This document shows, piece by piece, positions 1,709 through 63,498 of a stretch of 64,000 bases of DNA (position 1 is its first letter; each line of letters begins with the position of its first letter). Position numbers and translations under genes: made by a program. The notes under the pieces were generated by a model. The model did not search any database. It saw only the letters and a list, made by a program, of their open reading frames with translations, and was not told where the DNA came from. Origin of the DNA: Scenedesmus sp. ARA3 (taxonomy: Eukaryota > Chlorophyta > Chlorophyceae > Sphaeropleales > Scenedesmaceae); the NCBI GenBank assembly GCA_004335835.1, contig RWJK01001349.1, positions 1 to 64,000 on the forward strand, written 5' to 3'.

Positions 1709-4700
1709 ATGGCTACCGGCTTTTCCCTGCAGCGGGGTGCTGCAAACATCGGAGTAGCACGAGCATCGTGCTCTCGTCAGCCACACGTGCGTAGCGCACT
1801 GCTGCTGCCAAGACAAGTGCTGCTGCCAGACACACTGCTAGGCGCACACTCTCACTTTCTGCGTCCATCACCGCTGTTGCAGTGCCCAAAGGTTAACACC
1901 AACAACAGCAAAACTGTGCGGCTGTCGCCCATGGTGAGTGGCCTGCCTGGTTCTGTTCAAGGCCTGAAACACTGCACCCATCAGCATGGCACAGTGGGGT
2001 TGTGCTGTCAACTTATCAGCTGATCTGGGTCTGCAGCTGCTCATTGAGGCAGCAGCAACTGCGTACAGCGGAGGAAAACTCCTGGATTAACTTCAGGGTG
2101 CAGTCTCGGGGAGCTTGGAGTCAAGCCAGCAGTGCAGAATGCAAACCCTAGCTAGCAGCTGCAGGTGCCCAGCGACGGCCACATGCCAATGTCGCATCCC
2201 TTGGGCCCCTTCAATGATTGCAATTGCTTTCATCATACATGTTATAGCTATGGAAGGTATTGGCAGGCTGTTTCAGACCACAAGTAGTCAGCAGCTGCAT
2301 GCGCAGCTTACCGTGTGATCCTGCATGCACACTGCCCCACACAGCAGCAGCTGGCCGTGGGGTTTTGAACAGCATACATCATCACCAAAGCACTTGCAAC
2401 ATCCACACACAATTCTCCAGTGACCCTGCAACCCCCTGAGCACGCTGCTGCTGCTGCTGCTGCTGCAGGCTGCCGCCGCCACAGAAAAAAGTGCCCCCGC
2501 TGAGGAGGCCACGCCCAAGCTGTGGGGCGGCCGATTCACCGGCAAGGTTGACCCGCTGATGGAGAAGTTCAACGCAAGCCTGCCCCTGGACAAGCGCATG
2601 TGGGCAGAGGACATCCGGGTGCGTTGTATGTGTAGTGTGGCCTGTGTGTGGTGTTTGGCAGCAGCAGCAGCAGCAGCAGCAGCAGGCGGCGCAGGTGTTG
2701 ATAGAGGAATTGCAGATGACAGGCAAGCGTGCGAGCCAAGTGGGCTGTAAACAGCATATCTGACTAGCTTAAGGCCAACACAAGGTAGGCAGGTGTGGCA
2801 AGGTTGACCCGTTCATGGAGAAGTTCAACGCCAGCCTGCCCCTGGACAAGCGCATGTGGGCCAAGGACATCCGGGTGCGTAGCTGCAGCAAGATAAGCTG
2901 AATGTTTCAGCAGCTGCTGGCCTGGCAGCAGCAGCAGCAGCCTCTGGCTTGTTTGTGGGTGCAGGGCAGCAGCAACGTGTGCGCAGAGGTCATCCGGGGG
3001 CTTTGATCAGCATATGTAGCTGCATGTTTGGGCGGCCGCTTCACGGCAAGGTTGACCGGCTGATGGAGAAGTTCAACGCGAGCCTGCCCCTGGACAAGCG
3101 CATGTGGGCAGAGGACATCCGAGTGCGTGGGCTGCAGCACACCACAGAGCATGTGCATGTCTGAGCAGTTGCTTGATGTGCGGCAGCAGCAGCAGCAGGT
3201 GTGTGCTTGAGGCATGCGGGAGGAGGATGCTATGGCGTATCACTTTCTCAACGTTGCCTGTGCCTCATCATGTTACCCATCAAGCCGTAGCATCAACGTC
3301 ATTGGCCCCGCGCCCCAATGGAGCGCCAACAAGAAGGAGCACTACATCATCATGTTTGCTTGCCTGCGTGTTTGTGTTGATGCCTGCAGGGCAGCCAGGC
3401 GTATGCCAAGGCTCTGGTGAAGGCAGGCATCCTCACCCAGGAGGAGGCGGAGACCATCGTGGGCGGGCTGGATAAGGTGCGGAGTGTGTTGGAATTCCTG
3501 TGTTGGCCTGCCCTGCATTTTTGCATAACTGACAGCAGCACTACATGCTGACTGCGTGTCCAGCGTCACCTGTGATGGCTTTAATGACTGAATGAAATAC
3601 AACCCACATGCGTGCATGTTGTATCGCGGCAAGACTGGTTTCTATCACAACTTCAGAATACAGGGACCAAGCAGCAGCATGGCAACTGTCATATGTCACA
3701 CCCCTTCGCCACTGTTATGTCTGTCAAAATGGGCGTGCTTGGCGGCTCATGTTGGCGGTATGCTGCAACATTTGCACCCTGTGGATGTAGGCACGTATAG
3801 CCAAGGCGGGCAATTAGGACATCCTCGCGGCAGGCAAAAAAAACATATCATTGTGCTGCTGTGCTGCCGCGCAGGTTGCGTCTGAGTGGGCGTCCGGCAC
3901 GTTTGTGGTCAAAACGGGCGACGAGGACATCCACATGGAAAACAACTTGCACTATTACTGCTAAGCATGCTGTTTTCACTATATATCCTGCCTTGCTGGC
4001 GCGCAGGTTGCGTCCGAGTGGGCGTCCGGCACGTTTGTGGTCAAGGCGGGTGATGAGGACATCCACACCAAGAAAAACTTCACTACTGCAGCAACTTTAC
4101 TACTGCATCAACATGATGACTCATTGATTGAATTCACTGCCTTCTTGCCGCACAGGTTGCGTCCGAGTGGGCCTCCGGCACGTTTGTGGTCAAGGCGGGT
4201 GACGAGGACATCCACACCGCCAATGAGCGGCGGCTGACTGAGCTGGTGGGGGCGGTGGGCGGCAAGCTGCACACGGGGCGCAGCAGGAACGACCAGGTGC
4301 GCGTTGTTTTGTGTTGTTTGTAGCAGCAGTGCGCTTGGGTCTGCATCGTGGCAGTTTCAGACAATGCGCATGTCTTGCCAGCAACGCTGGATACAACAGC
4401 TGTCTTGTTGGGCTGTGTTTGTTATGTGAGCTGGTTTGGGCAATGTGTGGCAAGCTGCACATGGAACCGACTGCAGAAGAAGACCCCGTTGTGTGAAGTA
4501 GCAGGGCGCTTTGCTCTGCACTGAAGCCGATATGGGGCTGGGCAGCTGTTGCCTGATCCTGCTGTGCCTGCTCTGTTGCTGCTGCAGGTCGCCACAGACA
4601 CGCGGCTGTGGCTGTTTGCTGCGTTGACTGAGGTGCGGGGCAGCCTGCAGGAGCTCATCAGCGTGGCCACAAACAGGGCAGAGGCGGAGGCGGACGTGCT

Positions 4701-7700
4701 CATGCCAGGTGAGATGGTGTGACTGCTGGCTGCCGCTGTGCCTGTATGTGTTATGACGGTGTGGTAAGGCAGCCTGCAGGAGCTAATCAGCGTGGCCACA
4801 ACCAGGGCAGAGGCTGAGGCGGACGTGCGTATGCCAGGTGGGTCGGGATTTAGGTGGGGTGGCAGGGTTGCTGGCTGCTGCGGCGCTGCTTGATGTGGAA
4901 GGCTGGTTGCAGCTGCAGAGTAACAGCAGCAGTGTGCTTCATGCGGTTAACCACAAGTTTGCACACATATTGGGCGGCGGCGGACATGCTCATGCCAGGT
5001 GTGCGGGGTGGCTGGTCACGTGCTGCGGCGCTTATTGTTAATGAAGGGCCAGCGCAGTATCATCAGTGATGGTGTGCAAAGATACGCACTGCTCTAGGTT
5101 GCAGCATCCCGCAGGCCCAGCACTGCGGTCACCACCACAACACTGCGCTGCCACTGTGCTGAACACCCCAACGACTCGGCCACAGTACAGACCTCCAACC
5201 TCTGCATGTGTCCTGTCACCAATACATGCCTGTCCTGCAGGCTTCACGCACCTGCAGCAGGCGCAGACGGTGCGCTGGGGCCACTGGCTGATGAGCCACG
5301 CCTCAGCCTGGCAGCGCGGCGACATGCGGCAGGCCCAACATCGTGCTCGCCACCCCACCCTAACACACAATAAGCACAATTCGCAGGCCACTGTCTGGCC
5401 TTTCAAATGCCCCTCAGCTGACCTTTTCGTGTGTCTACTGCTGCTTGTTTCAACCGCCGTTGTGCAGGCTTCACGCACCTGCAGCAGGCGCAGACGGTGC
5501 GCTGGGGCCACTGGCTCATGAGCCACGCTTCAGCCTGGCAGCGCGACGACATGCGGCTGCGCGACCTGCTGCCGCGCGTGGCCACGCTGCCGCTGGGCAG
5601 TGGCGCGCTTGCAGGAAATCCTTTTCTGGTGGACCGGCAGTTCATTGCGCGGGAGCTGGGCATGGTGGGAGGCGTGTGCCCCAACAGCATGGACGCTGTC
5701 AGCGACCGTGAGTCCAACCGTTTGACTGATTGCTTTGTTGATTGTTGCGTGAACGAGCATACAGCTCTGCGAGGCGGGTGTAGCAGCAGCACGAGTAGTG
5801 CTTGGATGTGAATGCGCTGTGGGTTCTCCGCAGCGCCAGCATGGGCGGTGGTGCGCTTGCAGGAAACCCTTTTTTGGTGGACCGGCAGTTCATTCACAGG
5901 TGCTGGGCATGGTGGGCGGGGTGTGCCCCAACAGCATGGACGCCGTCAGCGACCGTGAGTTTGTTGGGTGGTTTTATCTGCTGAGATCAGCATTTGGTTG
6001 CTTGTGGCATCAGTTAGTGCCAGCAGTGCTCGGGTGTGTGTACAGCAGCAGCTTTGTGGAACATTGCTGTTGTGACCATCTAGCTAGCCTGCTGTGCATG
6101 CTGCTGGCCTCCTGAGTAGCAATGCTTCCTGTCTCCTTGCAAGATGCTGCGCGCGCCTTGTGGCCTTTGTCACTTCAGCACAAGTTGTGTGCAACGCAAC
6201 ACAGCCAACTTGCTGATCATGCCTTGCGCTACCATCCTCTGCTCATTCTTCTCGCCCCCATCTTCTGTTCATTTTCCTGCAGGCGACTTTGTGGCGGAGA
6301 GCCTCTTCTTTGCTGCGCTGCAATAACCAGTTATCAGTTCACACCTCCTTGCCCTTGACACTCCTGCAAGCGTCCTCTGCTTGATGCTGCCGCAGAAACA
6401 ACCTTGAAGACGCAAGTCGCCTGCCACATCTGGGGTCCTTGTTGTCACAGTGTTCGTAATTCAGTGCACCGTTGTTGCGGTGCAAGCAAGGTGATGTCTT
6501 TTTCAGGCCTCCTGCGAACAATTCCTGCTACATGCTGTGCCGTCCTGCAGGCGACTTTGTGGCGGAGAGCCTCTTCTTTGCTGCACTGCACCTGGTGCAC
6601 CTGTCTCGCTGGGCTGAGGACTTGATCATCTACAGCAGTGGACTCTTCGGCTTCGTGCAGTGCAGCGATGCATATGCAACAGGCAGCAGCCTCATGCCAC
6701 AGAAGAAGAACCCGGACGCGCTGGAGCTCATTAGGTGGGGTTTGTCATAACATGTTATTTAGGGAGTTTGAATTGCGGGGTGTTGGGCCTGACAGCTGGC
6801 ATAGGCTGCATGCAGCAGTGGCTGCTGATGCAGCGCGTCTCTGCTACAGCTGCTGGGTGCACCTGCTGTGCTTTTGTGCTGCTGATCTCAAACCTTATTG
6901 GGGTGACTGGAGCAACACATGTTGACGATTGCTGCTAAACAAGGTTGCTTTCTTGACTGTGTTGTTTTTGCGGCTTGCTCTCCTGCAGGGGCAAGGCGGG
7001 CAAGCTGCAGGGCAACTTGGCTGGCGTGATGGCTGTGCTGAAGGGCACGCCCACCACCTACAACAAGGACTTCCAGGAGGCATGGGAGCTCATGTTTGAC
7101 AGCGTGGACGCGGCGCACGACTGCATCCGCATCGCCACTGGGGTGCTGTCGACGCTGAGCATCAACCCGGACAGGATGATGAAGGTGCGCTTGATTCGAT
7201 TTTATAGATGGTGTTATAACATATGTGGCCAAACAAAGCTTGCCAGGTGGCGTGCTGTCCATGCTGAGCATCAGCCTTGACAGGATGATGAAGGTGGGTG
7301 GGGCGCTGTGTCCTGCGGATGTCTGTACAGCATACAGTTGTGAACTTCTGTAGAGACTTTCTGTGTTGTGAAACTCACACCCGCTGTCTGCTCTGCAAGA
7401 CCTGTTGGCGGCATGATAGACACAGCAAATGCTTACACCCTGCTGGTGTGCTGCCTGTTCCCATCCCTCTCCATGGCAGGGCCTGTCTGCAGACATGCTG
7501 GCCACCGACCTTGCCGAGTACCTGGTGCGCAAGGGTGTGTGCTTCAGGAAATCGAACTCCTCACATCTTGCAACACTTCTCATGTCCGCAGGGCCTGTCG
7601 GCTGACATGCTGGCCACTGATCTTGCTGAGTACCTGGTGCGCAAGGGCGTGCCCTTCCGGGAGACGCACCACGTCAGCGGCGCTGCCGTCAAGATGGCGG

Positions 7701-8226
7701 AGGACACTGGCGTGCCGCTGAGCAGCCTCAGCGTGGCGCAGCTGCAGAGCATCCACCCGCTGTTTGAAGATGACGTCGTGAAGGTGCGTGTGTGGGGTAT
7801 CAGGCAGTGCTGCTAGTAGTGGCGTACGTGAATCATAGACGCCGGATACTTGGTGTTCTTCAGGTTCTCTTGTGGTTTGTTTGGCGGCTTTGGCCTAGGA
7901 GACGGCCTAGGGCTTTGGCTGTTTCATAGGCAGGGCAACATGCAGATTGGACAGTTGCAGGTGCCGCTGAGCAGCCTCAGCGTGGCACAGCTGCAGAGCA
8001 TCCACCCGCTGTTTGGTGACGACGTGGTCAAGGTGCGTCGTTATGTGTGCGCGCAATTGTTTTGTTGTATGTGCATGGGAAAGCGCCTGCTTTTGGCTCT
8101 GTTTGCTATGCTGTGTTTAGCCTCGACCCGCTTTTCAACGACGATGTGGTCAAGGTGCGTGGGTGGATTGTCAGCAGTGCCAATAAAGGTTACGTTTGGG
8201 ATGCTGACGTTTCCGTTGTTGCATGG

Positions 8227-8258
<32 letters not shown>

Positions 8259-8322
8259 AGGTGTGGAATTCAGTGCCCCTACTGACGCACGTGACCCGTT
8301 GCTGACGTATCCTGGTGCATTG

Positions 8323-8420
<98 letters not shown>

Positions 8421-8548
8421 AGGTGTGGGACTTCAGTGCCTCTGCTGACGCGCGTGACACTGAGGGCGGCGCCAGCAAGCGCTCGCTGCTGGAGCAGGTG
8501 GCCAAGATGCGCGCCTACCTGGCAGCAGAGCAGGTGGCGCAGCAGTGA
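1709..8548 (+). CDS. ASL: Argininosuccinate lyase, plastid-type, 10 exons
   Basis: Argininosuccinate lyase splits argininosuccinate into arginine and fumarate, the last step of arginine synthesis. Exons: 1709-1933, 2469-2618, 3390-3476, 4156-4296, 4588-4708, 5468-5707, 6551-6734, 6989-7184, 7592-7783, 8423-8548; all phases agree and give 553 residues ending in TGA. Exon 1 encodes a basic, Ser-rich leader of about 75 residues that looks like a plastid transit peptide. The mature part starts KLWGGRF and carries [15 protein letters not shown] (catalytic His region), [12 protein letters not shown], and the superfamily signature [12 protein letters not shown] near residue 366. The enzyme looks intact and of normal length. 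Introns 2-9 and the 3' flank hold partial copies of neighbouring exon edges. Intron 1 and the last intron end in CTG tracts that run straight into the acceptor CAG. The start was chosen because exon 1 joins exon 2 in frame at ATG|GTGAGT. Confidence 0.95.
2796..3124 (+). repeat. Two echoes of the end of ASL exon 2
   Basis: Intron 2 contains two further copies (about 2796-2878 and 3030-3124) of the last 80-95 bases of exon 2, each followed by a donor-like GTGCGT. They translate to near-identical residues ([10 protein letters not shown]...) but neither is needed for the protein. Confidence 0.9.
3265..3350 (+). repeat. Dispersed repeat, copy 1
   Basis: The segment begins CATCATGTTACCCATCAAGC and ends near the CACTACATCATCATG stretch. 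A closely matching copy lies in reverse orientation around 22000-22168, and weaker ones at 14318-14376 (+) and 46679-46735 (-). Here it sits in ASL intron 2. It may be a fragment of a mobile element; no coding domain is visible. Confidence 0.65.
3863..4076 (+). repeat. Two echoes of the start of ASL exon 4
   Basis: About 3863-3946 and 3994-4076 each repeat an acceptor (GCGCAG) followed by about 70 bases of exon 4 ([13 protein letters not shown]...). The true exon starts at 4156. The copies lose similarity just after the HT/HM codons, without a donor. Confidence 0.9.
4768..5010 (+). repeat. Echoes of the end of ASL exon 5
   Basis: About 4768-4838 repeats [11 protein letters not shown] through the donor. 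A shorter decayed copy at 4972-5010 keeps only the last codons (DMLMPG) and the donor GTGTGC. Confidence 0.85.
5229..5333 (+). repeat. Echo of the start of ASL exon 6
   Basis: An acceptor and about 90 bases of exon 6 ([16 protein letters not shown]...) are duplicated upstream of the true exon start at 5468. The copy ends within the codons that follow ASAWQRGDM. Confidence 0.9.
5833..5956 (+). repeat. Echo of the end of ASL exon 6
   Basis: About 120 bases of the exon 6 end ([14 protein letters not shown]..., [11 protein letters not shown]) and its GTGAGT donor are repeated. The copy has a small deletion that breaks the frame, so it is not a usable exon. Confidence 0.9.
6271..6325 (+). repeat. 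Echo of the start of ASL exon 7
   Basis: The acceptor CCTGCAG and the first 43 bases of exon 7 ([13 protein letters not shown]) are copied about 270 bases upstream of the real exon. The copy then runs into a TAA. Confidence 0.9.
7231..7540 (+). repeat. Echo of ASL exon 8 end followed by echo of exon 9 start
   Basis: In this one intron 7231-7292 copies the end of exon 8 ([15 protein letters not shown] with a GTGGGT donor), while 7480-7540 copies the start of exon 9 ([19 protein letters not shown]). The order shows the general rule: exon-end copies follow the exon and exon-start copies precede it. Confidence 0.9.
7957..8294 (+). repeat. Echoes of ASL exon 9 end and exon 10 start
   Basis: 7957-8037 and the shorter 8126-8160 repeat the end of exon 9 ([23 protein letters not shown] plus GTGCGT). 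8225-8294 repeats a CTG tract, the acceptor CAG and the first codons of exon 10. Confidence 0.9.
8327..8420. repeat. CTG tract forming the 3' end of the last ASL intron
   Basis: About 31 uninterrupted CTG units run directly into the acceptor CAG at 8420-8422. The tract occupies the place of a normal polypyrimidine tract. It is one of the longest triplet runs in the window. Confidence 0.9.
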
Positions 8549-8591
8549 TGCAACCCAATGCATGTGCATGCCAGCAAATCGGCTGGCGCAG

Positions 8592-8768
8592 CATTGATGC
8601 AACCCTGCTGCTGGAGCAGGTAGCGGAGGTGCGCGCCTACGTGGCGGCAGAGCAGGTGGCGCAGCAGTGATGCAGGCAACGTAATCCATGTGCATGCAAG
8701 CGCGCTTGATCATCAAGCACCATGATGGTGCATGCCTACCTGGCAGCAGAGCAGGCGGCGCAGCAGTG
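8592..8768 (+). repeat. Two echoes of the ASL C-terminus and stop in the 3' flank
   Basis: After the true stop (8546-8548), 8592-8671 and 8720-8768 repeat the codons for [18 protein letters not shown] and (V)HAYLAAEQAAQQ, each followed by TGA. They lie outside the coding sequence. Confidence 0.9.
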
Positions 8769-10251
8769 ATGTTCAGGTGCTTCTGGCTGCGCTTAGCTAG
8801 AGCAGCTGGCGCAGCAGTGGTGAACAGACAGGAGCAGAACCCTTGCTGGGCATGCCAGGGTACAGAATTATGCGTGCTGAATCATCTGGCTGCAGCATGT
8901 ACTGTTCAGGAGCATCTCTGTGCTGTGATGCTGTGATGGCGCTGGTGCTGCTGTGAGGTCACGTTTGTCACAAAAGTTGTGTGGGAACAGGAGCTGAATG
9001 TGCACACGCATCATGGGCAACTTGCCTTGAAGGAAGTCAGCCGCTGCTTGTGCACCTATGACATGATTTGGTGCAGCAGCAAAGGCAAGTTTTTTGCTTC
9101 AGGGTGCTGCTAATAGGTTTTGCTTGTGGATTATGTTGCAATCGCCATCTGCACATCAGATAGGCTGTGATTCATCCGTGTCTGGCTGTGGCAAGCTCCG
9201 CCAGCGGCAGCAGGCCTTTTGTTTTGCAGGATGCTCTGCATGGACAATGCTGTCTGTATGAGCGTTGCAGGGCCCAGCTGCTTGATATGGTGTTGACCTA
9301 TCAAACGTCTGGTCTGTAGCACTGCTGCATGACGCAGCGGCACAATGTGGCGCTTGCACGGTGCAGACGACGACAGGGATCTTCTTGTGTCACTAATGTA
9401 ACTTGCTTTTTCGAAGCTGTTGTACACAGGTATTTGATTTATATCCTGCAGCTCGAAACACCGTTAATTGCATGCCCTACAGGTGCAGGTATGGTGCTGC
9501 AGTAGCTGGTGTGCCATGCTGCTCTTGGTCCAATGTTTTGGCAGGTGTGTTGATACGCCGGAACACGCAACTATTTCCATGAATCAACAGCATCCGAGTC
9601 TTTCGCAGGTGTACTCAAGAATAGTGCACCCAATCAACCGAGTCAACAATGCGCCCCTTTGAAGTGAATCTAGGCGTCGCATAAGCTAGATTGTCGCTGA
9701 ACATGACGATCACACGGAACTACAATTACATCACATTGAAAGACGCTCGATCGCCTCTCGTGCTGGGAGTGACAAGCAAAGGGACTGTCACGCTGCGTGT
9801 CGTGTCAGTGCGAAGCTGAGGAGCCCAACATTTGGTTCAGGCTCGCCGGAAACATAGACTTGGTTAAAGCGAAGAATTTTAGATCCCGGCATGATTTTAC
9901 ATTCAACTATCCATCACAAACAGGTGAGACGTGCAGTCGCACAGCTGTGCAAGCACACATTTACTGCCTGCTTACGGTGAGGTTGTTTAAAATCCTATCA
10001 GCGTTGATTTTCGCCTGTTTTTGGCTGCTGTACAAGCAGCCACAGGGCTTTCCTCTGCGTCGAGGTCCCGCAAGCGTTACCGGGCACTCCGAAACTTGCA
10101 TGCTCCCAAAATACTCGATCCCATGCCCCACACCCATTACAAGTGTGTTCCGTGTTTGCAGAGTCTTCATTGCTTACCGTGATCGCCGTCTGACCACAGC
10201 CCAGTTGGCAATCGATCGAACTACCTACAGCTGTCAGCAGCTAGGAGCAGC
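8769..10251. other. Intergenic region without a recognised gene
   Basis: This 1.5 kb region holds the ASL 3' flank and the upstream region of the next gene. A 152-codon open frame at 9797-10255 on the plus strand has a composition unlike the neighbouring genes and no recognised domain, so it is not called. A TGTAA (algal-type polyadenylation signal) occurs near 9408, too far from the stop to assign. Confidence 0.5.
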
Positions 10252-21500: not shown

Positions 21501-22179
21501 GGAGCAAATTGTGCGTTGCCTATATCTGTCACGCACCACCATGTTTTTGGCCACGGGGCACTACTACGATCTGTATGGGGAAGGCTTCAAGCAGCAGGTT
21601 GGTGTGTTTGGAGCCTGTCTGTGTTGCTGAGAACTGTTTCGAGCAGTTGGTGCACTGTTCATAACCTGGCAGGAATTGCCATGACTGTGGCCGCAGGGCA
21701 TCATTACGATCTGTACGCAGAAGCGTTGAGCAGCAGGTCGGTGTACTTATGCCCTGTGTGTGTTGTCCTGATCTGTTTGGAGGAGCTTGTGCACCAGCAG
21801 AGCCGATGGTAGACGCAACAGGGCTGTGCTGCAGAATGATGAGCGCTGCCTTGCTGGCAGTCGAGTGGTGGTCTGTTTAGAGGGGTACTGGACCGGCAAG
21901 CGCAAGCGCCGCACGGCAATGCGCTGACACAGTCCTACGCTCTGGGGTTTGGGGTTCTGTTAGGTTACTGGTGTATAGGTTCATTGCTGATTTTCTTTGA
22001 AAAGGCTTGGGGTGTGCGTAATGCTTGCAAACATGATGGTGTAGTCCCTTCTGTTGCCGNNNNNNNNNNNNNNNNNNNNNNNNNNNNNNNNNNNNNNNNN
22101 NNNNNNNNNCATTGGGGCGCGGGGCCGATGGCGTTGATGCTATGGCTTGATGGGTAACATGATGATGACAGTCCTACGC

Positions 22180-47668: not shown

Positions 47669-47724
<56 letters not shown>

Positions 47725-50629: not shown

Positions 50630-50679
50630 NNNNNNNNNNNNNNNNNNNNNNNNNNNNNNNNNNNNNNNNNNNNNNNNNN

Positions 50680-50954: not shown

Positions 50955-53913
50955 AGTGACTGGGTCATCAGGAGACCAAGGCTGGATGCTGACATGCTGC
51001 GACCTCTCTTTGTGGTGCTTTTGGATTAACCAGTTGAGCTTTGCTTTGACATGCCTGTGAGCAGATGCTGTGCTTGCTGCTGTAGTGTTGCAGAGGCTGC
51101 TGTCATAAGCAAAGGTGGCTCAAGGATGCTGCTGCTGCTGCTGCTGCCTGTAGATCAAGCTGCCGCGTGTGTCTGGCATCGTGCTGCGTGAGCGCTACAA
51201 GCAGATGAGCTACGTGCCCGTCAGCAAGGCCAGGTGCGGCGCTGACTGAGCACAGCAGCAGCGGTGTGGCAGTACCAGTATGCTGACACAGTGTTTGCAG
51301 TCACATGCTGAGCCGCCAAGCCATGTTGTGTAGCAGCATGCTATTCAGCAAGGCCAGGTGCGGCGCTGGCTGAGCACGGCAGCAGCGGTGTGGCAGTAAT
51401 CATCGCCACAAGCACAGTCACATGCTGGTCCGTTCAGCCAGTCTGTATGGAGGCATGCATGGTTGTGCACTGTATGGAGGCATGCATGGTTGTGCACTGT
51501 ATGGAGGCATGCATGGTTGTGCACTGTATGGAGGCATGCATGGTTGTGCACTGTATGGAGGCATGCATGGTTGTGCACTGTATGGAGGCATGCATGGTTG
51601 TGCACTGTATGGAGGCATGCATGGTTGTGCACTGTGTTTGTGAAGCGCTGGAACTCGGAAGGAATGCTCCTTGGCTGCTTACTAGCTGCTGCTCCTGCTT
51701 GGCTGCTTGCAAGGACTGCCTATTAGTTCTGCAGGGGTGGACAAAGCCGCCTGATGGTATTATTGACTCCTGACGGAGCTGCTCTGACCAAGAATCTGAC
51801 ACTGCTGCTGCTCTCCTCCGCCTGCAGGGAATATGTTGCTCCTGCTAAACCTTTCTGTGTAGTGGTTATCAAGCCCCTGACACATTCAACGCTTGATGCT
51901 GCCGTCCTGCCTGCAGGGACTATGTTGCCCCTGCTAATGCTGCCTGGGTGGTGGTGGCCGTGCTGGTGCAAAAAAACATCGGCAGCTCCAGCGCAGGCGC
52001 GCCCTACAGCAGGTGGCGGCTGTCTGATTTGTCTGGCAGCGACACCTGGGTGGCGCTGTTTGGGGATGCACACAAGGAGCACTACGCAGAGGTGCGGCAC
52101 ATGAGGCTGTGTTTATTTTTCAGGAGTTTTCATAATGTACCAACTTGTTGAAGTGAGGCCATCAGAGTGCTTGGCTTGCGCTGTTTGGGGATGCACACAA
52201 GGAGCACTACGCAGAGGTGCGGTGGCACTTTGCTAGGAACAACACCGTACCATGTTCAATAAACCGCTGTAGTGACATGCAATTTTGATATGAGCCATGG
52301 TCCTATGTTGGCTCTCACCAACCAGCTCCCTTACAAACTTGAGTTTCACGTGTGTTGCTGCTGCCTGCAGGCGGAGGGCTCAGTGCTGGCCTTCTACAGC
52401 CCGCGCTTTGCAGCCAAGGGCCCCGGCGGCAGCAGCAGCAGCAGCAGCAGCAGCGGCGGCGGCGGCCTGGCAGTGTCACAGGCGTCCCAGGTGGAGCGGC
52501 TGGCCAGCTCAGCAGGCTGGGGCTTCTGCAGGGGCAGCACAAAAGCCGGTGGGTGGCTGCCATTGAAGCAAAAAACTCTTTGAGATTTGAATGCACGCTC
52601 CCATAGTACATGAAGGTGGATGCAATCTGCTACTATGGATGTGATGAATGTGTATGCAAGTCAAGGCACTGATTTGAAGGATGATTACTCCCCTCTGTGT
52701 TGTGTGACATTGACGTCTGCAGGTTCCAGGTGCACCAATGCCGTGGACACTACTGTCAGCCAATTCTGCCAGTACCACGCGCTGCAGCAGGCCAAAACAC
52801 TACGGAAAGCACCCACCTTGGCCGGCAGAGGCGGCGGCGGCAGCAGCAGCAGCAGCGGGTCGCTGCTAGGGCCGCGCAGCCAGGCAGCAGCAGCAGCCAT
52901 GCAGTCTGGCGGAGCTGGGCAGCATACTGCAGGTAGGAGCAGCAGCAGCTGATGCTGACTACTGGCTATGTGTGCACTGCTTGTGCAGCTGCTGGAGGGC
53001 GGCTTGTGCTGCTGTGTATGTCAAGCTTTGGCATCTGCTGGGGATGATGGCAGCATCCATCTGCTGGTGTCGTGTGAGCCGACAGCTGCTGCATCTTCAC
53101 CGGCCGGCCACGCTGACTGAGAGCTACAACTGCGCTTGTGTCTGCATGCTGCTGCTCTGTGTGTATGCTGTGCACATCAATTGTTCTCACCTATTGGTGT
53201 TATGGGAGCATCCATCTGCTGCAGATGTAAGATGCATCTGCCCCGGCCGGCCACGCTGACTGACGGTTGCGACTGCGCCTTATATGTGCGTGCTGTTGTT
53301 GCCCTGCAGCAGCCAACAGCGGCAAGGTGTATGATGCCCGCAGCAACACCTGGAGCACAACAAGCAGCATCACCCAGCAGCAGCAGCAAGGCAGCAGCAG
53401 CAGCAAACCTGGCAGTGCATCGCTTCCAGTGCAGCCACCAGCAGCAGGTGCAGCCATCAGCAGCAGCATGCCAAGCAGCGGCAGTGGCAGGCGGCTGTCG
53501 CTGGACTTGGACGTGAATGCTGCTGCTGCGTGCCGGCAAGTGGCTGCCAACTGTGCTGCTGAGGCGAGGCGGCGCAAGCAGGCAGAGCAGGCGGAGTTGC
53601 GGGTGAGGGCGATGTGTGTATTGGTTAGATAGACCTTCAGAGGCTCTCCGAAATGGAAAACAGGGTGAAGGGGGTCGAAAGAAGGCGCGCACATTGTCGT
53701 AGAGTAACAGTGTTATGCCTGGCAATCATGTCGTGAAAGAGTGCGCTCTTGGAACTCCAGATGCTGTGCCTTACAACACACATGCTTGGAGATTAAGTTA
53801 TGGCCTGGCCATTCTGACGAGTAACAAACCTGCCCTTGCTGTGTGCTGCCGCGCACCTGCCAGGAAGCCTTGCGGCGCAAGCTGCTGAAGCAGCAGGCAG
53901 CCGGCAAGCCCAG

Positions 53914-54840: not shown

Positions 54841-54872
<32 letters not shown>

Positions 54873-54986: not shown

Positions 54987-55020
<34 letters not shown>

Positions 55021-56972
55021 GCTGTTATAATGCAGGCTGCTGTCAAGCGCTGCTGACGCTGCGCACGACCGTCTGCTGGGCAAGCTGCTGGATCAGTACC
55101 AGCAGAAGGACGATCTGGCGCAGCAGCTGGAGGGCATCACCAAGCTCACGGTGAGGCGCAAAACATCGCATTAATTATCATTGATGATGCTGTCATGTCT
55201 GTTGTAAGGCAATTAGCGCTGTGGTACTGACCTGGCGCAGCAGCTGGAGGGCACCACCAAGCTCACGGTGAGTGGCAAGGTACTCTATTTTTGTGTTCCT
55301 AACATAGATACAATACATTGTGCACGTGCCGGACTGCGGCATAAATAGCACTAACCTGGCTCGGCAGCTGCGAGGCGTTATGGTGTGCGACTGTCGTACC
55401 AATGTGTTGCCTGGGTGAGGGGCAGCTGGCTGCGGCTGGCTCCAGGTGGTGCCTGGTGCACCTGGCAACATGAATGTTGATGAGGACAGCTGTAGCATTG
55501 TCAGCATGGAATGCGGCTCCCTCTGTGCATGCTCACACTTTGTTTGTGTTTCTTTGTGAGGGCTGGGCCGTCAGTGGAGTGGCTTACGGAAGTCAGTACT
55601 AGTAGTCCAGCTGCCTGCACATGAACCATCTCCATTTGAACATAGGTACGCGTCTATCTGGTTGCAGGTCACCTCCAGAATGCCGCACTTGCAACGCCCT
55701 CGCCGAGAAGCGCCGCTCCTACTGCCTGTGTCAAACCGGAAACATCCGGCACCATGTATACACATATGCTTGCAGGTCACCGCCTTTGAGTGCCGCACCT
55801 GCAGCGCGCTCACTGAGAAGCGCCGCGCCAGCTGCCTGTGTCAAACTGAAAACAGCCGGCACCATGTTGTGTACACGCATATGCGTGCAAGTCACCGCCT
55901 TTGAGTGCCGCACCTGCAACGCGCCAGCTGCCTGTGCCAAACCACTAACACTACACCATCATCATATGTACGGCCGGCAGGTCACTGCCTTGACGTGCCG
56001 CACCTGCAGCACTCTACCCAGCGCCGTCGCAGTAACTGCCTCCCCACCCACTGACAGCAGCACTGACAGCATCATCGCATGTACATGCCTGCCTGCAGGT
56101 CACTGCCTTTGAGTGCCGCACCTGCAACGCGCTGACCGAGAAGCGCCGCGCCAGCTGCCTGTGTCAAACTCAAGACATCCGGCGCCATGTTGTGTACACA
56201 CATATGCTTGCAGGTCACCGCCTTGGAGTGCCGCACCTGCAACGCGCCAGCTGCCTGTGCCAAACCACTAACACTACACCATCATCATATGTACGGCCGG
56301 CAGGTCACTGCCTTGACGTGCCGCACCTGCAGCACTCTACCCAGCGCCGTCGCAGTAACTGCCTCCCCACCCACTGACAGCAGCACTGACAGCATCATCG
56401 CATGTACATGCCTGCCTGCAGGTCACTGCCTTTGAGTGCCGCACCTGCAACGCGCTGACCGAGAAGCGCCGCGCCAGCTGCCTGTGTCAAACTCAAGACA
56501 TCCGGCGCCATGTTGTGTACACACATATGCTTGCAGGTCACCGCCTTGGAGTGCCGCACCTGCAACGCGCTCAGCGAGAAGCGCCGCGCCAGCTGCAACT
56601 GCCTTCACCATCTTGATATGTACACACACCTGCCTGCAGGTCACCGCCTTTGAGTGCCGCACTTGCAACGCGCTCACCGAGAAGCGCCGCGCCAGCTGCA
56701 GCGCCCACGACGTGGCAGCAGTACGCGTCTCCAAGCGCTGGTGGATCTGCGAAGCCTGCGGCTGGCGGCTGAGCACACTGCGTGAGGTGATGCCCAGCAA
56801 GCGCTGCCCCAAGTGCAGGGACCCCGGGGTGCTGTTTAGGCAGACGAGTGCGTATGCAGGGTCTAAGCCGCTGCTGGTGAACCCTGAGGCTGCGGTAAAC
56901 CCCATGGCGAGCAGGGATGGCATGCTGGCACGTGGCATGGAGCACGCCTTCTGCCTGCAGAACTCGATTTGA
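49824..56972 (+). CDS. MCM10: MCM10 DNA replication factor, 10 exons
   Basis: MCM10 helps activate the CMG helicase at origins. Exons: 49824-50052, 50284-50796 (contains a gap), 51154-51233, 51917-52091, 52371-52548, 52723-52932, 53310-53602, 53864-54729, 55036-55150, 56640-56972; phases agree outside the gap, and the stop is TGA. Acidic MVLVDDLDGLLELAD is followed by a poly-Gln stretch, then FVEKLTGLKIKLPRVS and the OB-fold (WVVVAVLVQKN, YSRWRLSDLSGSDTWVALFGDAHKEHY). The internal zinc finger is GFC-x9-C-x11-C-x2-H, split across exons 5 and 6, with the family spacing. After a long Gln/Ala/Ser linker comes the C-terminal zinc domain: ECRTC, C.AH, WWICEACGWR, KRCPKC, and ..LLARGMEHAFCLQN-like end. 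The two halves of the poly-Gln exon are in different frames, so the gap length is not a true 50. Confidence 0.93.
50571..50736. repeat. CAG tract encoding poly-Gln in MCM10, with assembly gap
   Basis: At least 19 CAG units on each side of the gap. The right half reads Gln in the MCM10 frame and so does the left, which requires the missing length to differ from 50 modulo 3. Confidence 0.9.
50630..50679. other. Assembly gap (50 N)
   Basis: Placeholder gap inside the CAG tract of MCM10 exon 2, as expected where reads cannot span a long triplet run. Confidence 0.99.
51340..51402 (+). repeat. Echo of the end of MCM10 exon 3
   Basis: The codons for SKAR and the GTGCGG donor are repeated together with about 40 bases of following intron (GCGCTGGCTGAGCACGGCAG). 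The copy therefore extends well past the splice site. Confidence 0.92.
51444..51635. repeat. 27-base minisatellite, seven copies
   Basis: A unit containing GGAGGCATGCATGGTTGTGC is repeated seven times almost without change in MCM10 intron 3. Because 27 is a multiple of three, several frames on both strands stay open through it. Those frames are by-products and not genes. Confidence 0.95.
51820..51868 (+). repeat. Echo of the start of MCM10 exon 4
   Basis: The acceptor CCTGCAG and codons EYVAPAK precede the true exon (DYVAPANAAW) by about 90 bases. Confidence 0.9.
52168..52222 (+). repeat. Echo of the end of MCM10 exon 4
   Basis: ALFGDAHKEHYAE and the GTGCGG donor are repeated after the true junction at 52091. 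Confidence 0.92.
54889..55035 (+). repeat. Echo of the start of MCM10 exon 9
   Basis: About 75 bases (LLSSAADAAHDRLLGKLLEQYQ) with an acceptor are copied at 54894-54968, followed by a CTG tract like the one preceding the copy. Confidence 0.92.
55215..55400 (+). repeat. Echoes of the end of MCM10 exon 9
   Basis: 55228-55275 repeats LAQQLEGTTKLT with a GTGAGT donor; about 55352-55390 is a much-worn second copy. Confidence 0.85.
55650..56600 (+). repeat. Array of echoes of the start of the MCM10 zinc-domain exon
   Basis: About nine copies of the acceptor plus VTAFECRTCNALTEKRRASC precede the true exon at 56640, near 55667, 55777, 55889, 55979, 56098, 56214, 56302, 56421 and 56537. Some carry an internal deletion joining TCNA to the SC-CL part. 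The stretch 55912-56235 is repeated almost perfectly at 56235-56558, a 323-base direct duplication holding several echoes, so the array also grew as a block. Confidence 0.93.
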
Positions 56973-57087
56973 GCTCGGCTTCAGACAGGCTGCAGATGGT
57001 GCGCTGCTGTGTTTGGAAGGGCGTATATAGTGCGTGGCGGCGGCAGCTTTTGTGATTGCTTGATTATTACCAGGGCTCTCAGGAACT

Positions 57088-57214
57088 GCAGAAGCGCGTA
57101 GTGTTTAAGCCGCTGCTGGTGAACCCTGAGGCGGCAGTGAACCCCATGGCGAGCAGGGATAGCATGCTGGCACGTGGCATGGAGCACGCCTTCTGCCTGC
57201 AGAACTCGATTTGA
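57088..57214 (+). repeat. Echo of the MCM10 C-terminus and stop in the 3' flank
   Basis: About 115 bases repeat KPLLVNPEAAVNPMASRD, the following HAFCLQNSI and the TGA, 242 bases downstream of the true stop, with only a few changes. Confidence 0.95.
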
Positions 57215-58791
57215 ACTCGATCAGATGTTAACGACACGCTGTGCAGCTGTGTCATGGTGTGCGTTTACTGTACAGTGTGTAAGGATGTGTGCAACATCAT
57301 GCCGTGCAGCAGTGCTGGTGTGCTCCTGGTTGGAAGGGGGTGTCAGTGGCTTGGAAGAAATGGTCTTCTGGTGCCGCACACAGGTTACGTCTGTAAATAA
57401 CGCCTTAGCAAATGGGTTGTGGTAGCCGAAACTGGACGTATACGGGGATTGCAGCAGGTTCACAACTTGGTACTGCCTGGGTGGCCAGCTGCTGTAAGAC
57501 AGAGGAGTCGCGCCACAGAGACGAATTTGCAGTGCATCATGACACACTGACACTGTGCCTATGTCCCAGGGTGGGTTGGTGGCACTGCAACGTGATGGTC
57601 CCCATGGGCGTCAATTGACACCCTGCTAATGAACGTGATGGTCCCCATGGGCGTAACTTGACACCCTGCTAACGAACGCCACCAGGCACGCGCAGTTCCA
57701 GCGCCTGAAGTCGCAACACACTCGCCCTGGTTCGGAAACCAAAGTGACAACACATGCCAGCCTGTGGGCTAAAGCCGCATGAAGCTTCACTGCTGCAGTG
57801 CACACTGATTGTAACACTGATCCACCGTGACTGTGCGTGCCACAGCACCTGCTTGCAGCACTAACTCAGCACTGGGTGCAGCGGCAATGCCAACTAGCAC
57901 ATCACGCTGCAAAACTGCATACGATACACATCCTGTGACACGCACCAGCCACATGCATGTGCTGGGTTGCCTGCACCAGTAGTGCTTGCGGGCATCTTGC
58001 AAACATTGCGGCTGCCAGAATCAACTGCTGCCATGCCTGTTTCGGTGGTTTGCAAGCAGCTGGTGCGCTGTAGCTGCATCTGCAGCCACACCTCAACACA
58101 TAATATGCTGACTCATCACTGTATCACAACGTCATCTGCATGCAAAGCAACCCGCTGGCGCACACTCAACTGGACAACATGGCACAGACCTCAAGACTGC
58201 CAGTCTGCGGCAGACCGCCTGCACAAAGCACACGGCTCTGCCAGCTGGAATGCATCACTGTAAAAACCTCGGACAGGTGTCAAGCTCGCTAAAACCCCTT
58301 TGCACGGCTTATCTTGCAAACACCCTGGCTGTTGCACAAAGAGGATGCAGCACTGGCAACTGGCAGCATCATGTACAGTTGTGCAGAAATGCACAACATG
58401 TGACATGCAGCCAACAGCCTGCATTGCTTGCGACATGCAGCGAACAGCAACATGCGTACAAAACACTGCAAGCGGAGCGTTCCCAGCTGTGCAAGCAAGC
58501 TGACAGCAAGAGGTTGAGTTTACCTCCCAAACAATGTTTGCTGCAGCAGCTGCCGCTGCAATCGCCAGCATGTACAAACACCTAATGAGTAGCTCAGCTA
58601 CCCTACGCCATATACCTTCTCTCGACACTGCTGCTGCTATTGCTGCCAATAGAACAGCGCAAACCCCACCGGAACCTGTACAGCTGCGGCTGGATCTCCT
58701 CACGACCCAGCTCAATTATTGTCAATATCCAGCCGATCCTCTTCACAAGCCCAGATCCTCCTAACAATCCAGCTAGATCTCGTTCCACAAC
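57215..58791. other. Convergent intergenic region between MCM10 and DRG1
   Basis: No gene is supported. TGTAA signals at about 57276 and 57389 could serve MCM10 polyadenylation. 57589-57674 is a two-copy direct repeat of about 43 bases. Around 58735-58790 a worn copy of the DRG1 stop region (AGATCCTCCTAAC) may be another terminal echo. Confidence 0.5.
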
Positions 58792-59604
58792 CTAGATCTT
58801 CTTCACGATCTGCACGATGTCCTCGTCCTGCAGGCCGTGGTCCTTGCCCACCTTCTGCGGCCGGTGCTTCACGCTGCTGCCCCACACGTGCGCGTACTTG
58901 AGCTGCTTCAGCATCGTCTTGTGGATCTTGTTGCAGAAGCCCTCGATGCTTGCGTTGGCGCGGTGCAGCACCACCGGCTCGTTGAAGTCCGGCAGCTTGC
59001 CCTTGGGCTTGGTGTACACGCGCACCTGGTGGGATCAAAAGCAGGTTTTGGTGGGAAAGGTAGTGCGTGCAGGCAGGTGGGTTGGTTGCAGCGTAAAAGA
59101 GAGTAACAAAGCCGGCAGCTTGCCCTTGGGCTTGGTGTACACGCGCACCTGTTGGGTTGAGTGTGCAGGGAGATCTGTAACTGTTAGCAACGGCGTGAGT
59201 GAGAAATGCATGGTGCAGCACCATGGGCTCGTTGAAGTCTGGCAGCTTGCCCTTCGGCTTGGTGTACACGCGCACCTGGTTGGTGCATGTCATGTGAGGT
59301 GTGGGTGGCAGTGAGGCAAGCAGGGGAGTCAATTACAGGGACAAACATGTACAAACCGTGGTACTGCATCACTGCTGCGCACAACAGTCCTGGCGTGTGA
59401 TGCACATGGGCACGCAAGTGATGGGTTTTATGCAAACCAGGTGTTTCTTTAGCTGGTTGACAGCTCTGACCGGTGCGAGTGTCACAGAACGCCTGCTTCA
59501 GGGGATGTAACACTGTAACACTGTCATGTGACTCACCAGGTCCAGGTACTCCCAGCACATCTCCACCAGGCCGTCCAGGTTCCACTCGTGGTAGGCGCAC
59601 ACCT

Positions 59605-59652
<48 letters not shown>

Positions 59653-61810
59653 GCAGCAGCAGCAGCACAGAGAGAAGCTATAGGCCAGGCCACATGACAT
59701 ATGCAGTGCGATTCCCGACCTACCCCATACCAGCAGCAAGTGTTACGCAACCACCACCAATCCGAGCGAGTCCACGGCAACGATACGCCGCTGAAGTCAC
59801 ATGCACGCATCACCGCCCTGATGATTAGTGAGTTTCCAAACAAGCAGCTAGCACCCCCACACCACAGCTTCAGCATGCAGTAGTGCGGCAGCTTGTGCAT
59901 CACCTCTAGATCCTCCAACATTGTACTGCATTGTTCTGCCTGGTGTTTCAATACAAAACAATGTTGATCTGGGTGCATGCTCACCGGGCAGTAGTGTAGC
60001 AGCTTGTCCATCACCTCCAGCTCCTCCAACATTACTGCACACTAGCTCAAGTCCATATATAATGATATGATACGTCTGATCTCACCGGGCAGTAGTGTGG
60101 CAGCTTGTCCATCACCTCCAGCTCCTCCAGCGTGATCTGATTTGTCGTGTTCCCTTCCTGAGCAACACTGGTGAAAGGAACAACAGCACCTGATGATGCC
60201 GCTACTAACAGTCACAACAATAGCAACAAGCAGGTTCCCAGTAGTTGTAACATCGCTCACCGGGCAGTAGTGTGGCAGCTTGTCCATGACCTCCAGCTCC
60301 TCCAGCGTGATCTGGTCGATCTTGTTCACCACATAAATAGCCGGCACGTACACGCGGCTGCCCTCAATCACGTCCACCAGGTCATCAACATCGTAGTCCT
60401 CGCCCAGGTGGATGTCCGCGTTGTGCACCCTGCGGCACAACGTGTTGCGTTTTGTGAAGTGAGTTTTAGAACACCCTTTGGTAAAACCATCCCCGTCCAA
60501 GTGATTTAGGTTGTAGTCCTCTCCCAGGTGGATGTCCGCGCTGTGCACCCTGCAGGGAATGAATCACGGATTGTAAGACATGTCAGAAACAGGATAGGAG
60601 CATGCTTATCTATGAAAGCATCACGCCTGCGTGTTTCACGTCGTAGTCATTGCCCAGGTGGATGTCCGCGTTGTGCACCAGCGAGATTCTGAACCCTGAA
60701 CATTTTACCCCCCTAAACCCTTTGCGACCCTAAACCGCTGCAACTGGAAATACCCACTTGTACTCCGCGCATACCGCTTTCACCGGGTCCAGGTCCAGTC
60801 TGCCGCTGCCCTGCATGCCCCAGCAGTGAGATACCTGAACCTTAAGATCTCAGAACCCCAGAAACCCCAAGACCCTAAACCGCTGCGAATCCCAACGCTC
60901 ACTTGTACCCTGCACACACCGTCTTGACCCCTTCCAGGTCCAGCTTGCCGCTGCCCTGTACGCCTCTACTGGCAGGGTCCACAACCACAAACCCTGAATT
61001 TATAATCAAAGCGCCTCACTGAACTCACTTGTACTCCGCGCACACGGCCTTCACCGCGTCCAGGTCCAGTTTGCCGCTGCCCTGCACCGCGCTTGTGAAT
61101 GCGATGCCTCCCTTGTCCTTGCGCTTGAAGGTGATGTTGGGCGGCTTCTTGTTCAGCCGGATGCCAAAGCCCTCCAGCTCGTGCTCGATCAGCTGCAACA
61201 TTGGAGGAGATGAGATCGGTGGCAGGTTGGAAACGATCCACAGCAGATCAGATCAAATCACATACGATCAAACACAGCTACAACACAGCAAAATGCATAA
61301 CAGGTCAGCCGGATGCCACAGCCCTCCAGCTCGCGCTGGATCAGCTGCAGATCAGATTTTTGTAGAGGCACATGAGATCAGATCGCAGATCAATTGCAGC
61401 CGCACCGCAGCACAGTCCGGGCAGCGCACTGCCCCCGCGCCGCTGTTTCTGTGTGTGAGTGGCTTGAGGCAGTCCAGCACAATCGGGTGAGTGCTGTCCA
61501 CGCATCCACAAAGCCACCGTCCATGAACACCAAAACACGAAAACACCAACCTTCTTGTGCGTCAGCGGCTTGAGGCAGTCCAGCACGATCAGGATAAGTG
61601 CATCCCATGCATGTAGATACCCCCACCCCCCAACACACACACCCCGACTCAAACTGACGCACCTTCTTGTGTGTGAGTGGCTTGAGGCAGTCCAGCACGA
61701 TCAGGATGAGGTTGCAGGTGCGCGCCGTAGAAATGACCTGCCGGCCACGGCCCTTGCCGTCCTTTGCTCCCTCAATGATACCGGGCAGGTCCAGCATCTG
61801 GATCTTGGCA

Positions 61811-61847
<37 letters not shown>

Positions 61848-62138
61848 CGTTGAGCGCTTGCAGCCGTAGAAGACGATGACTTTGGTTGGCAGAGCAAATC
61901 AGCATTTTACGCTGGCTGAAAGCTGAGTGCTATGACGGAACATCAAGCGAGCGCAGTTGCTGCTGGCCGCCGAACAACTAAATGCACACGGTTGACACTG
62001 CCGCAGCCGTGCCAGCTGCTGTAGGCTCATGCAATCCACCAGTCAGCAGCAGCAGTAACGGGCGAGGCCTCACCTCTGTAGCGCACGATGCCTGGCACAC
62101 ACGTCAGCGTGGTGAACTCATATGAGGCAGCCTGCAGG

Positions 62139-62187
<49 letters not shown>

Positions 62188-63498
62188 TCAATCACAAGAG
62201 CACTGGTAGCAATAACGGCAAGTGCCTTGTCGCACCAAGTGGCAATGCAGCTGCATGGCTTGAAGAATACATACTGCGCACGCACACGTTGTCAGAAGCA
62301 CCCATCAACACATCAACTGCAGACGCCTCACTTTCTGATGTCACAAGCGAGCATGACACAGCGTGACATGAAGCACGCAACGCTGCTGCTGCTGCTAGCT
62401 GCTGCAGTGCAGCTCTGGGCCGTGACCCTGCCTGATGCCGCAGCTCAACATTGAACGATGTGACATAGTACACACATTGCTGTGACTGTGCTGCTGCAGC
62501 GCACCTCTGGGCCATGTTACTGCCTGATGCCACAGCTCATCATGACCCGATGTAACAAGTCACATGTAACATGTAGCATGGAGCACACGGGCTGCTGCTG
62601 TGATGCTGCAGCGCACCTCTGAGAATGTGCCAGTCAGCTTGGTCAGCAGCGTGGACTTGCCAACGGAAGGAAAGCCTGCAGCCAAGCAGCAGCAGCAGCG
62701 GCAGCAGCTTTAAGGTCACACGTTGAAAGCTGCTGTGCACTGGTCAGATGCCGTGTCGTTCATGCGGCATGTACCGCAGTGCACATGTTGAGGTTGTGCC
62801 CGCGTACATGCGGCTGCGGCTGCAGTGCACAACGTCTGCACTATGCACATGCAGTGAGTGCAGCGCGGCAGGCAGGCAGACCACCTTAGTGTTGCTGCTC
62901 CATACGTAGCTGCTGCAAGCAAACATGCATAGCTCTCACCACGGCGGCTGCTGCTGTTGCTGCTGGCAGCATGCCTGCCAGGTGGCTAGCCGGGCCGCAT
63001 AGCTGCCGCTGTTGATGCCCCTGTTGCTGCCGTCGTTGCTGCTGCTGCTGGCCCCATGGCCGCCAAACAGCTGCCGCTGTCGCCGCCGCTGTTACTGCCA
63101 CTGTTGCTATAAAACTTGCTGCCGCTGCTGCTGCCACTGCTGCTGCCACTGTTGCTGCCACTCACCCACAAAGCCCACGCGCGCATCTCCAACCTTGTTG
63201 ACATCGAAACCTGCAGCAACAACAGCGGCAGCAGTGCTTGGCTCAGCGCCAGATGTGTTGCTGACGTTTCTGCAACCGCTGCTGCTGCTGATGTTGCTGC
63301 TTTCCTGCCTGCACCAGCACACGCCGGCCTTGCTGCTGATTGGCACTGCTGTTGCCCCTCCTGCATGCGGCCAACGCAGGCTGCAAGCTACGCTCACATC
63401 TATCCAACTGCAGCAGAATACCTGCTGCCAGCAAGCAAAGCAAGCCACGCTACTCCCAGCCATGCTGCCTGATAATTCCGGCAACAGCTAATCGCAGG

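Follow-up and report, generated by a model that had tools for sequence, protein, structure and literature searches.

Why do the edges of exons recur, together with their splice sites, inside the adjoining introns of a green alga, and why does the likeness between exon and copy end near the coding boundary? These questions are raised by a stretch of 64,000 nucleotides from Scenedesmus sp. ARA3 (GenBank assembly GCA_004335835.1, contig RWJK01001349.1, positions 1 to 64,000), called the window here, which is part of contig C986 in an assembly of 87.27 Mb and 1567 contigs. A first-pass annotation had reported partial copies of exon edges, termed echoes below, in the introns of at least seven genes in the window, and had explained them by repeated local tandem duplication followed by decay. 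Our analysis partly confirmed the observation, which was upheld in substance and extended, although several details were not, and the interpretation as a whole was partly supported. Duplication is the likely source of the echoes. The reading we favor, with a probability of about 45%, is that echoes are old duplications straddling a coding edge, in which the coding part has been re-templated from the constrained exon while the noncoding part diverged.

Occurrence and direction of the echoes

Gene models were built with a purpose-written spliced aligner, using reference protein sequences, for a total of 14 genes with 170 exon edges. ASL, DRG1, 5-FCL, VCP and two eIF4A-like genes, from four contigs, were modelled first and are referred to as the six genes; LHC1-7 and beta-tubulin complete the set. 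VCP, the two eIF4A-like genes, the seven LHC genes and beta-tubulin lie outside the window. The spliced alignments gave nine exons in ASL (aligned to human ASL), nine in DRG1 (every intron GT-AG) and 18 in VCP, with 9 and 10 exons kept in the eIF4A-like genes; two doubtful exons in one eIF4A model were left out before counting, as were doubtful N-terminal exons of LHC1, LHC3, LHC5 and LHC7. The predicted DRG1 protein is 94% identical to two eukprot transcriptome proteins and 84-86% identical to several Chlamydomonas proteins, which marks the source as a green alga. The label MCM10 was taken over from the first-pass annotation and is used as a name only. Echoes scoring at least 46 were used for edge counts, and a threshold of 40 was used for the anatomy, identity-profile, pairwise and intron-share analyses.

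The echoes are real and extend beyond the window. A direct copy in the edge's own flanking intron was found for 46 of the 170 edges, far above the reverse-complement control (0 of 170; 0 of 112 in the six genes) and the control in which the introns of other genes were searched (0 of 110 edges, six genes). In the six genes 40 of 112 edges bore echoes, and intron-side probes of the junctions matched in only 2 of 106 cases. The proposed directional rule, that copies of exon starts lie upstream and copies of exon ends downstream, also held. Wrong-side matches numbered 5 of 142 (4 of 100 in the six genes), and these five came from exons of 63-121 bp, where a probe of 80 bases runs into the part that was copied from the other edge. 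The rule follows from the geometry, for the mRNA stays unaltered after a straddling duplication only when splicing uses the outer site.

Echoes are unevenly distributed, and the earlier statement that they occur on both sides of most exons was too broad. Within the window they were found at 9 of 16 edges in ASL, 6 of 16 in DRG1 and 3 of 12 in 5-FCL; beyond it, at 15 of 34 edges in VCP, 2 of 16 and 5 of 18 in the eIF4A-like genes, 5 of 10 in LHC7 and 1 of 12 in LHC6. None was found at the 36 edges of LHC1-5 and beta-tubulin (loci L034-L038), genes that are expected to be highly expressed. Donors (21 of 56) and acceptors (19 of 56) were alike in the six genes, in which introns of at least 400 bases carried echoes at 32 of 58 edges and shorter introns at 10 of 54. 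The mean intron in these genes is 450 bases, and the guanine-cytosine (GC) content of the window is 57%; for Tetradesmus obliquus, a mean intron of 462 bases and a GC content of 57% are given (PMC5966456), close values that may hint at kinship. Echo frequency also varied with exon length, from 4 of 61 edges in exons below 100 bp through 11 of 32 at 100-129 bp to 31 of 77 at 130 bp or more.

An annotation-free search gave the same picture of orientation. Self-BLAST of the repeat-masked window (E<=1e-3) returned 88 direct repeat pairs, 72 of them within 500 bases, versus two inverted pairs, both more than 5 kb apart. In 200 kb of contig C1274 (9,959 bases N), 110 direct pairs lay within 1 kb versus one inverted pair more than 20 kb apart. 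The direct orientation and short distance, together with the absence of reverse-complement matches at the 170 edges, are those of tandem duplication. Motif counts at the ends of spaced repeat pairs were clear in the window (23 of 67, versus 8 and 5 in interior zones); in C1274 they gave no clear contrast (10 of 87 versus 10 and 1), and by eye many exon-like edges were present among the matches listed for that contig.

The loci of the window that carry echoes or coding-end copies are given below by position and strand.

2517-2618, forward strand: ASL exon with donor-side echoes at 2797-2880 and 3030-3128 (spliced alignment; repeat pairs 94-95%)
3856-4218, forward strand: start of ASL exon 3 (4156) with acceptor echoes 149 and 281 bases upstream (one self-BLAST alignment spans the filler, 78%)
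4602-4840, forward strand: end of ASL exon 4 (4708) with a donor echo downstream at 4732-4840 (spliced alignment and self-BLAST)
5236-5330, forward strand: acceptor echo of the start of ASL exon 5 (5468), 97% over 95 bases, with filler at 5331-5462
5842-5960, forward strand: donor echo of the end of ASL exon 5 (5707; self-BLAST and edge search)
6275-6322, forward strand: acceptor echo of the start of ASL exon 6 (6551), with filler at 6323-6542
7248-7296, forward strand: donor echo of the end of ASL exon 7 (7184)
7476-7548, forward strand: acceptor echo of the start of ASL exon 8 (7592)
7949-8038, forward strand: donor echo of the end of ASL exon 8 (7783)
8485-8771, forward strand: ASL coding end (stop ends at 8548) and two downstream copies (self-BLAST and stop-codon test)
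20265-21500, forward strand: probable end of an FtsJ-like exon (first intron base 20409) followed by eight donor-side echoes in units of ~139 bases
46397-49322, reverse strand: 5-FCL (MTHFS-like), seven exons, with echoes of the exon 2 donor, the exon 3 acceptor and the exon 5 acceptor
55656-56700, forward strand: MCM10 acceptor-side array of nine copies upstream of the exon starting at 56640, with several intron-flank types and a 323-base higher-order repeat
56858-57219, forward strand: MCM10 coding end (stop ends at 56972) and a downstream copy at 57100-57219 (94% over 120 bases)
58798-59283, reverse strand: DRG1 exon 9 (58798-59025) with acceptor echoes at 59112-59156 and 59212-59283
59877-60679, reverse strand: DRG1 exon 7 (60261-60429) with donor echoes at 60081-60152, 59979-60028 and 59877-59917 and acceptor echoes at 60513-60553 and 60638-60679
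60726-61349, reverse strand: DRG1 exon 6 (61029-61192) with donor echoes 126 and 271 bases away (one at 60752-60815) and an acceptor echo at 61305-61349
61450-61811, reverse strand: DRG1 exon 5 (61663-61811) with donor echoes at 61556-61598 and 61450-61491

The end of the FtsJ exon was placed from the repeat and the open frame with partial support from homology, and the FtsJ gene model is partial and weak.

Anatomy of the echoes and likeness at the coding boundary

Echoes reach 26-114 bases into the exon (61 echoes, six genes), and 54 of 70 begin exactly at the junction. Nearest echoes are mostly 103-150 bases from the exon, with a second group at about 206-268; a distance below 200 bases was seen for 40 of the 48 nearest echoes (median 121), and in these 40 the filler between exon and echo has a median of 71.5 bases. 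Spacing is tighter than independent reach and filler would give (standard deviation 22.3 versus 29.8, p=0.0006), and therefore it is the unit whose length is set, and not the filler. The claim that nearer copies are better preserved was not borne out, with a mean identity of 0.905 below 160 bases (n=30) versus 0.923 at 200 bases or more (n=25, p=0.34). Splice dinucleotides are intact in 31 of 35 donor echoes (GT) and 25 of 28 acceptor echoes (AG). Echo donors keep the motif GTG.G, and they match the real donor at +4/+6 only about 0.6 of the time. Within the six genes the echoes show 11 gaps, seven of which have lengths not divisible by three. The two eIF4A-like genes (L033 and L032) have a common intron position, DVQQ|VSLV, with donor echoes 162 and 163 bases away, which is probably a chance coincidence.

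The likeness between exon and echo drops at the coding boundary. Profiles were made with exon-only probes, and the intron side was then read off without selection. On the exon side identity is about 0.90 along the reach of the echo (about 0.8-1.0 per 5-base bin; 61 echoes). For donors, the intron side gives 0.76 over bases 1-5, which share the GT consensus, and 0.39 over bases 6-10; for acceptors it gives 0.85, 0.57 and 0.43 in successive 5-base bins. After pairs with many masked bases had been removed (55 of 61 real-echo pairs kept), clearly similar intron flanks (z>3) were seen in 4 of 55 pairs, from two edges. Thus, the earlier remark that copies often include intron beyond the junction applies to the MCM10 and FtsJ arrays and not to most echoes. 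Under neutral decay the roughly 9% divergence between echo and exon would lead one to expect intron halves about 80-85% alike. They are instead near random on average, with weak residual likeness, so that the proposal of local tandem duplication stands for the direct units of ~105-140 bases while subsequent simple decay is not supported for most echoes.

The residual likeness is in register. Relative to other windows of the same intron, mean percentiles were 0.56-0.65 from 20 bases beyond the junction outward; the likeness was above position-matched and same-intron controls, and significant at most but not all settings. In addition, four self-BLAST alignments span the filler at 68-78% (3856-4069, 59877-60028, 60726-60961 and 61450-61598). 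These flank tests omitted four fresh edges (VCP D16, A13 and A16; FCL A3), and results from 80-base flank windows, which overlap the next echo, were set aside. In the youngest echoes (96-100% alike) the fillers are mostly unalignable, with 6-20 alignable bases beside the splice site in a few. The two fillers searched in the whole genome, ASL 5331-5462 and 6323-6542, matched only themselves. Repeat pairs free of echo overlap were found in only 3 of 85 introns, versus 46 echo-bearing edges among 170.

As a rule, two echoes of the same exon resemble each other less than they resemble the exon, with the donors of DRG1 exon 7 and VCP exon 5 as exceptions. This suggests that each echo was copied from the exon, or refreshed from it, on its own. 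By codon position, the differences between exon and echo number 75/60/151, and 142 are synonymous versus 144 nonsynonymous, where random change would give a synonymous share of 0.26. Changes specific to the echo, unfitted, also favored the third position (24/21/42, p=0.012). This sign of coding constraint vanished once the mutation spectrum was fitted, the ratio of third-position rates on exon side and echo side being 0.91 (95% interval 0.48-1.48; LHC6 and LHC7 echoes omitted). Echoes thus look unconstrained now, and since constraint on them is unlikely, recent copying or re-templating of the coding part alone would be needed.

The pattern extends beyond splice junctions, as copies also occur behind stop codons. 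Probes ending at the stop were used, and the end of the likeness was judged from the bases beyond and from unanchored self-BLAST; LHC5 had too little downstream DNA and was left out. Three coding-end copies were found in 2 of 14 genes: two in ASL, 122 and 221 bases away, and one in MCM10, 242 bases away. Likeness continues past the stop for 5 bases in MCM10 and for 2 bases in the farther ASL copy. These two of the three copies point to a boundary set by coding rather than by splicing. The boundary may thus be that of coding, in a small sample of three copies from two genes, one of which is not sharp.

A minority of loci are arrays in which whole units, intron parts included, remain similar: among them FtsJ (9 units of ~139 bases), MCM10 (10 junctions) and the VCP exon 16 donor, which has five echoes with a period of 119. 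Both halves of the unit are alike in the 4 of 55 pairs, in FtsJ units u2-u7 and in parts of MCM10, and unlike in most other cases. FtsJ u2-u7 differ at 6-8 of 74-75 coding sites (B) and 6-10 of 67-69 intron sites (f), while u1 and u8 combine unlike flanks of another type (30 and 28 of 55) with coding parts that are no more distant than those of the other units (8 and 7 of 75). Among eight MCM10 pairs listed with related flanks, five have coding parts 2-10% and intron parts 13-21% diverged; in the other three the flanks are identical and the coding parts differ at 0, 0 and 2 of 43 sites.

Tandem LHC paralogs at L034/L035 (C1476:10500-23500) allowed intron divergence to be compared with that of coding sequence. 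LHC2 and LHC3 share 66 of 66 fourfold sites and all 119 residues, and their adjoining introns are 11% diverged and align throughout apart from one extra unit; thus, intron DNA is not hypervariable in this one measured pair. The extra unit is one of two ~105-base tandem copies in LHC2 of a block that is single in LHC3. It may have been gained in LHC2 or lost in LHC3, as the two LHC2 copies differ by 13%, about as much as the paralogs do. For LHC1/LHC3 and LHC4/LHC5, fourfold divergence is 15% and 12.5%, and the introns resemble each other no more than those of a control pair do. This pattern could reflect exon-limited homogenisation or conversion between paralogs, or strong codon bias.

Origin of the echoes

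The process that we propose begins with local tandem duplication of units of ~105-140 bases within genes. A unit straddling a coding edge survives because the outer splice site serves, or the first stop codon, so that the mRNA stays as it was and a copy is left in the adjoining intron or in downstream DNA; this part is shown by the geometry, direction and spacing of the echoes and by the whole-unit arrays. The noncoding half would then diverge in both copies, mostly past recognition, while the coding half of the echo would be repeatedly re-templated from the exon through local recombination between direct repeats, whether by gene conversion, out-of-register exchange or replication template switching. 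The effect could be one-way through purifying selection, with transfer from exon to echo harmless and transfer from echo to exon removed. The expected outcome would be echoes that resemble the exon at about 91% and end close to the coding boundary, with filler next to them that has strongly diverged. Re-templating of old duplicates is favored because of the unit length and the residual flank likeness; likeness in register and alignments spanning the filler are what old duplicates would be expected to retain. The five MCM10 pairs in which the coding part has diverged less than the intron part also speak for it, as do FtsJ u1 and u8, with their unlike flanks and close coding parts.

Several results weigh against this reading. 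The equal divergence of coding and intron parts in FtsJ u2-u7 means that no refreshing is visible there, and the two parts of VCP exon 16 diverge similarly. Re-templating is a step that we infer rather than one directly sighted, and conversion acting symmetrically on the whole unit should keep the intron halves alike too, so that a homology threshold has to be assumed. The echo donors have the look of functional donors in their own right, an outcome not predicted by plain conversion. The likeness of the nearer ASL coding-end copy runs, with gaps, 27 bases into noncoding DNA. Lastly, the scarcity of echoes at short exons exceeds what would be expected from reach alone.

Other accounts were also considered. 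Some process might insert a coding edge (26-115 bases plus a few beyond) into noncoding DNA close by, always in direct orientation and in a single step, the filler never having been homologous. The mostly unalignable fillers of the youngest echoes, the two fillers unique in the genome and the splice dinucleotides, largely intact as in recent copies, all suit such copying. It is nevertheless unlikely, as it leaves the weak in-register likeness, the alignments across the filler and the tight spacing unexplained, has no known cause for ending near a stop codon or splice site, and would stand beside whole-unit arrays that are ordinary tandem duplications of similar period. Echoes might also be held by purifying selection themselves, as decoy or competing splice sites or as regulated alternative exon ends. 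The conserved portion is indeed an exon edge plus a splice-site motif, GTG.G is kept where +4/+6 differ from the real donor, and the unfitted third-position bias would agree. We consider this improbable: copies behind stop codons have no role in splicing, no clear coding constraint is left after the spectrum fit, many gaps break the reading frame, FtsJ u2-u7 diverge equally in both parts, and selection alone would not hold the synonymous bases of exon and echo alike.

Neutral decay after straddling duplication, the account first offered, fits FtsJ u2-u7, VCP exon 16 and FCL exon 3, in which the intron flanks are still alike, and it stands for this minority of arrays. It is contradicted for most echoes by the step from ~0.90 to near-random identity at the junction, by the ordinary divergence of the LHC2/LHC3 introns and by the rarity of intron-only repeats, and as a general explanation it is quite improbable. 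An inter-allelic or hybrid origin, in which an echo brings the exon edge of another haplotype with a diverged intron flank, would explain functional echo donors, a conserved exon part and an unlike flank in one step, as well as the excess of synonymous differences. Nearly every duplication would have to be inter-allelic, the two filler searches returned no second haplotype, and high-identity VCP exons matched one locus, making this origin very unlikely. An assembly artefact is hardly credible. The assembly does contain N gaps, one within a CAG run, but the copies carry private substitutions, all six genes on their four contigs have echoes, reverse-complement matches are absent, and echo ends follow coding boundaries.

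Other candidates were tried and rejected. A dispersed element (introner or transposon) as the source of the filler does not agree with the two fillers that match themselves alone. That intron sequence mutates intrinsically faster than echo sequence is contradicted by the alignable LHC2/LHC3 introns and the equal parts of FtsJ u2-u7. Purely exonic duplication blocks were rejected; the far ends of echoes look abrupt, by eye only. Retroposed or cDNA copies do not fit, since most echoes continue with GT or AG and not with the next exon; likeness to the untranslated region (UTR) was absent in two of the three stop-codon copies, in a search with single-edge probes in which longer joined copies were not sought. 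Copying bounded by the spliceosome or the mRNA is doubted as the whole answer, because such a copy would not end at a stop codon and UTR likeness is absent in those two copies. Intron gain of the AGGT type does not apply, since echoes are set apart from the exon by filler.

Our literature search, made on titles, abstract openings and papers such as PMC4974935, PMC12899622 and PMC8780407, found no description of this pattern, although most subscription journals were outside its coverage. Concerted evolution by gene conversion leaves likeness confined to the coding parts of gene copies while their introns diverge. That process is known between gene copies, whereas the one proposed here would link an exon to a piece of itself within its intron. 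A closely related system is a single recent case that produced a new intron; here many edges in many genes are involved, existing introns grow, and the intron half is mostly without likeness. The AGGT tandem genomic duplication model (Rogers; reviewed in PMC3443670, which cites Gao and Lynch 2009 and Hellsten 2011) shares internal duplication and a choice of splice site that leaves the mRNA unchanged, but there the duplicated exonic segment becomes the intron, while here copies lie within existing introns ~115 or ~250 bases off with filler between. Novel introns of Drosophila (PMC2891723) likewise involve regional tandem duplication of coding sequence, with one copy intronised and proto-splice sites, at new intron positions rather than as repeated copies at existing edges. 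Introners (PMC9860276) also add intron DNA in many genes, but as copies of dispersed elements, whereas the two fillers tested here are unique. The pattern looks like internal tandem duplication of a known kind combined with a coding-bounded retention for which no description was found.

We put forward tentatively the wider proposal that exons continually rewrite their own fragments in introns and behind stop codons, coding edges serving as fixed templates in a continuing cycle of duplication and recopying, and that this cycle built a large part of the intron DNA of this alga. If each echo unit is taken as 119 bases, units account for ~29% of intron DNA in the six genes, echo bodies alone making up 12.7%. 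With each echo adding ~120 bases, intron growth becomes testable at base resolution. For likeness to end near coding boundaries, some process must hold copies that are free of constraint close to a source that is constrained. Since the splice sites of most echoes are intact, it may also be asked how the spliceosome avoids tandem decoys.

Other features of the window

Scans of the window for Rfam families and tRNAs returned no hits. The window holds dozens of (CAG)n/(CTG)n runs, many within open frames as poly-Q or poly-A. Two 50-base N gaps occur at 22060-22109 and 50630-50679, the second within a CAG run. A perfect minisatellite at 51443-51635 has a 27-base unit in 7.1 copies with 100% matches. 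Lastly, an unbroken frame of 801 codons at 15339-17744 contains weak internal repeats (AACAADLARLAL-like) and poly-Q/poly-A runs.

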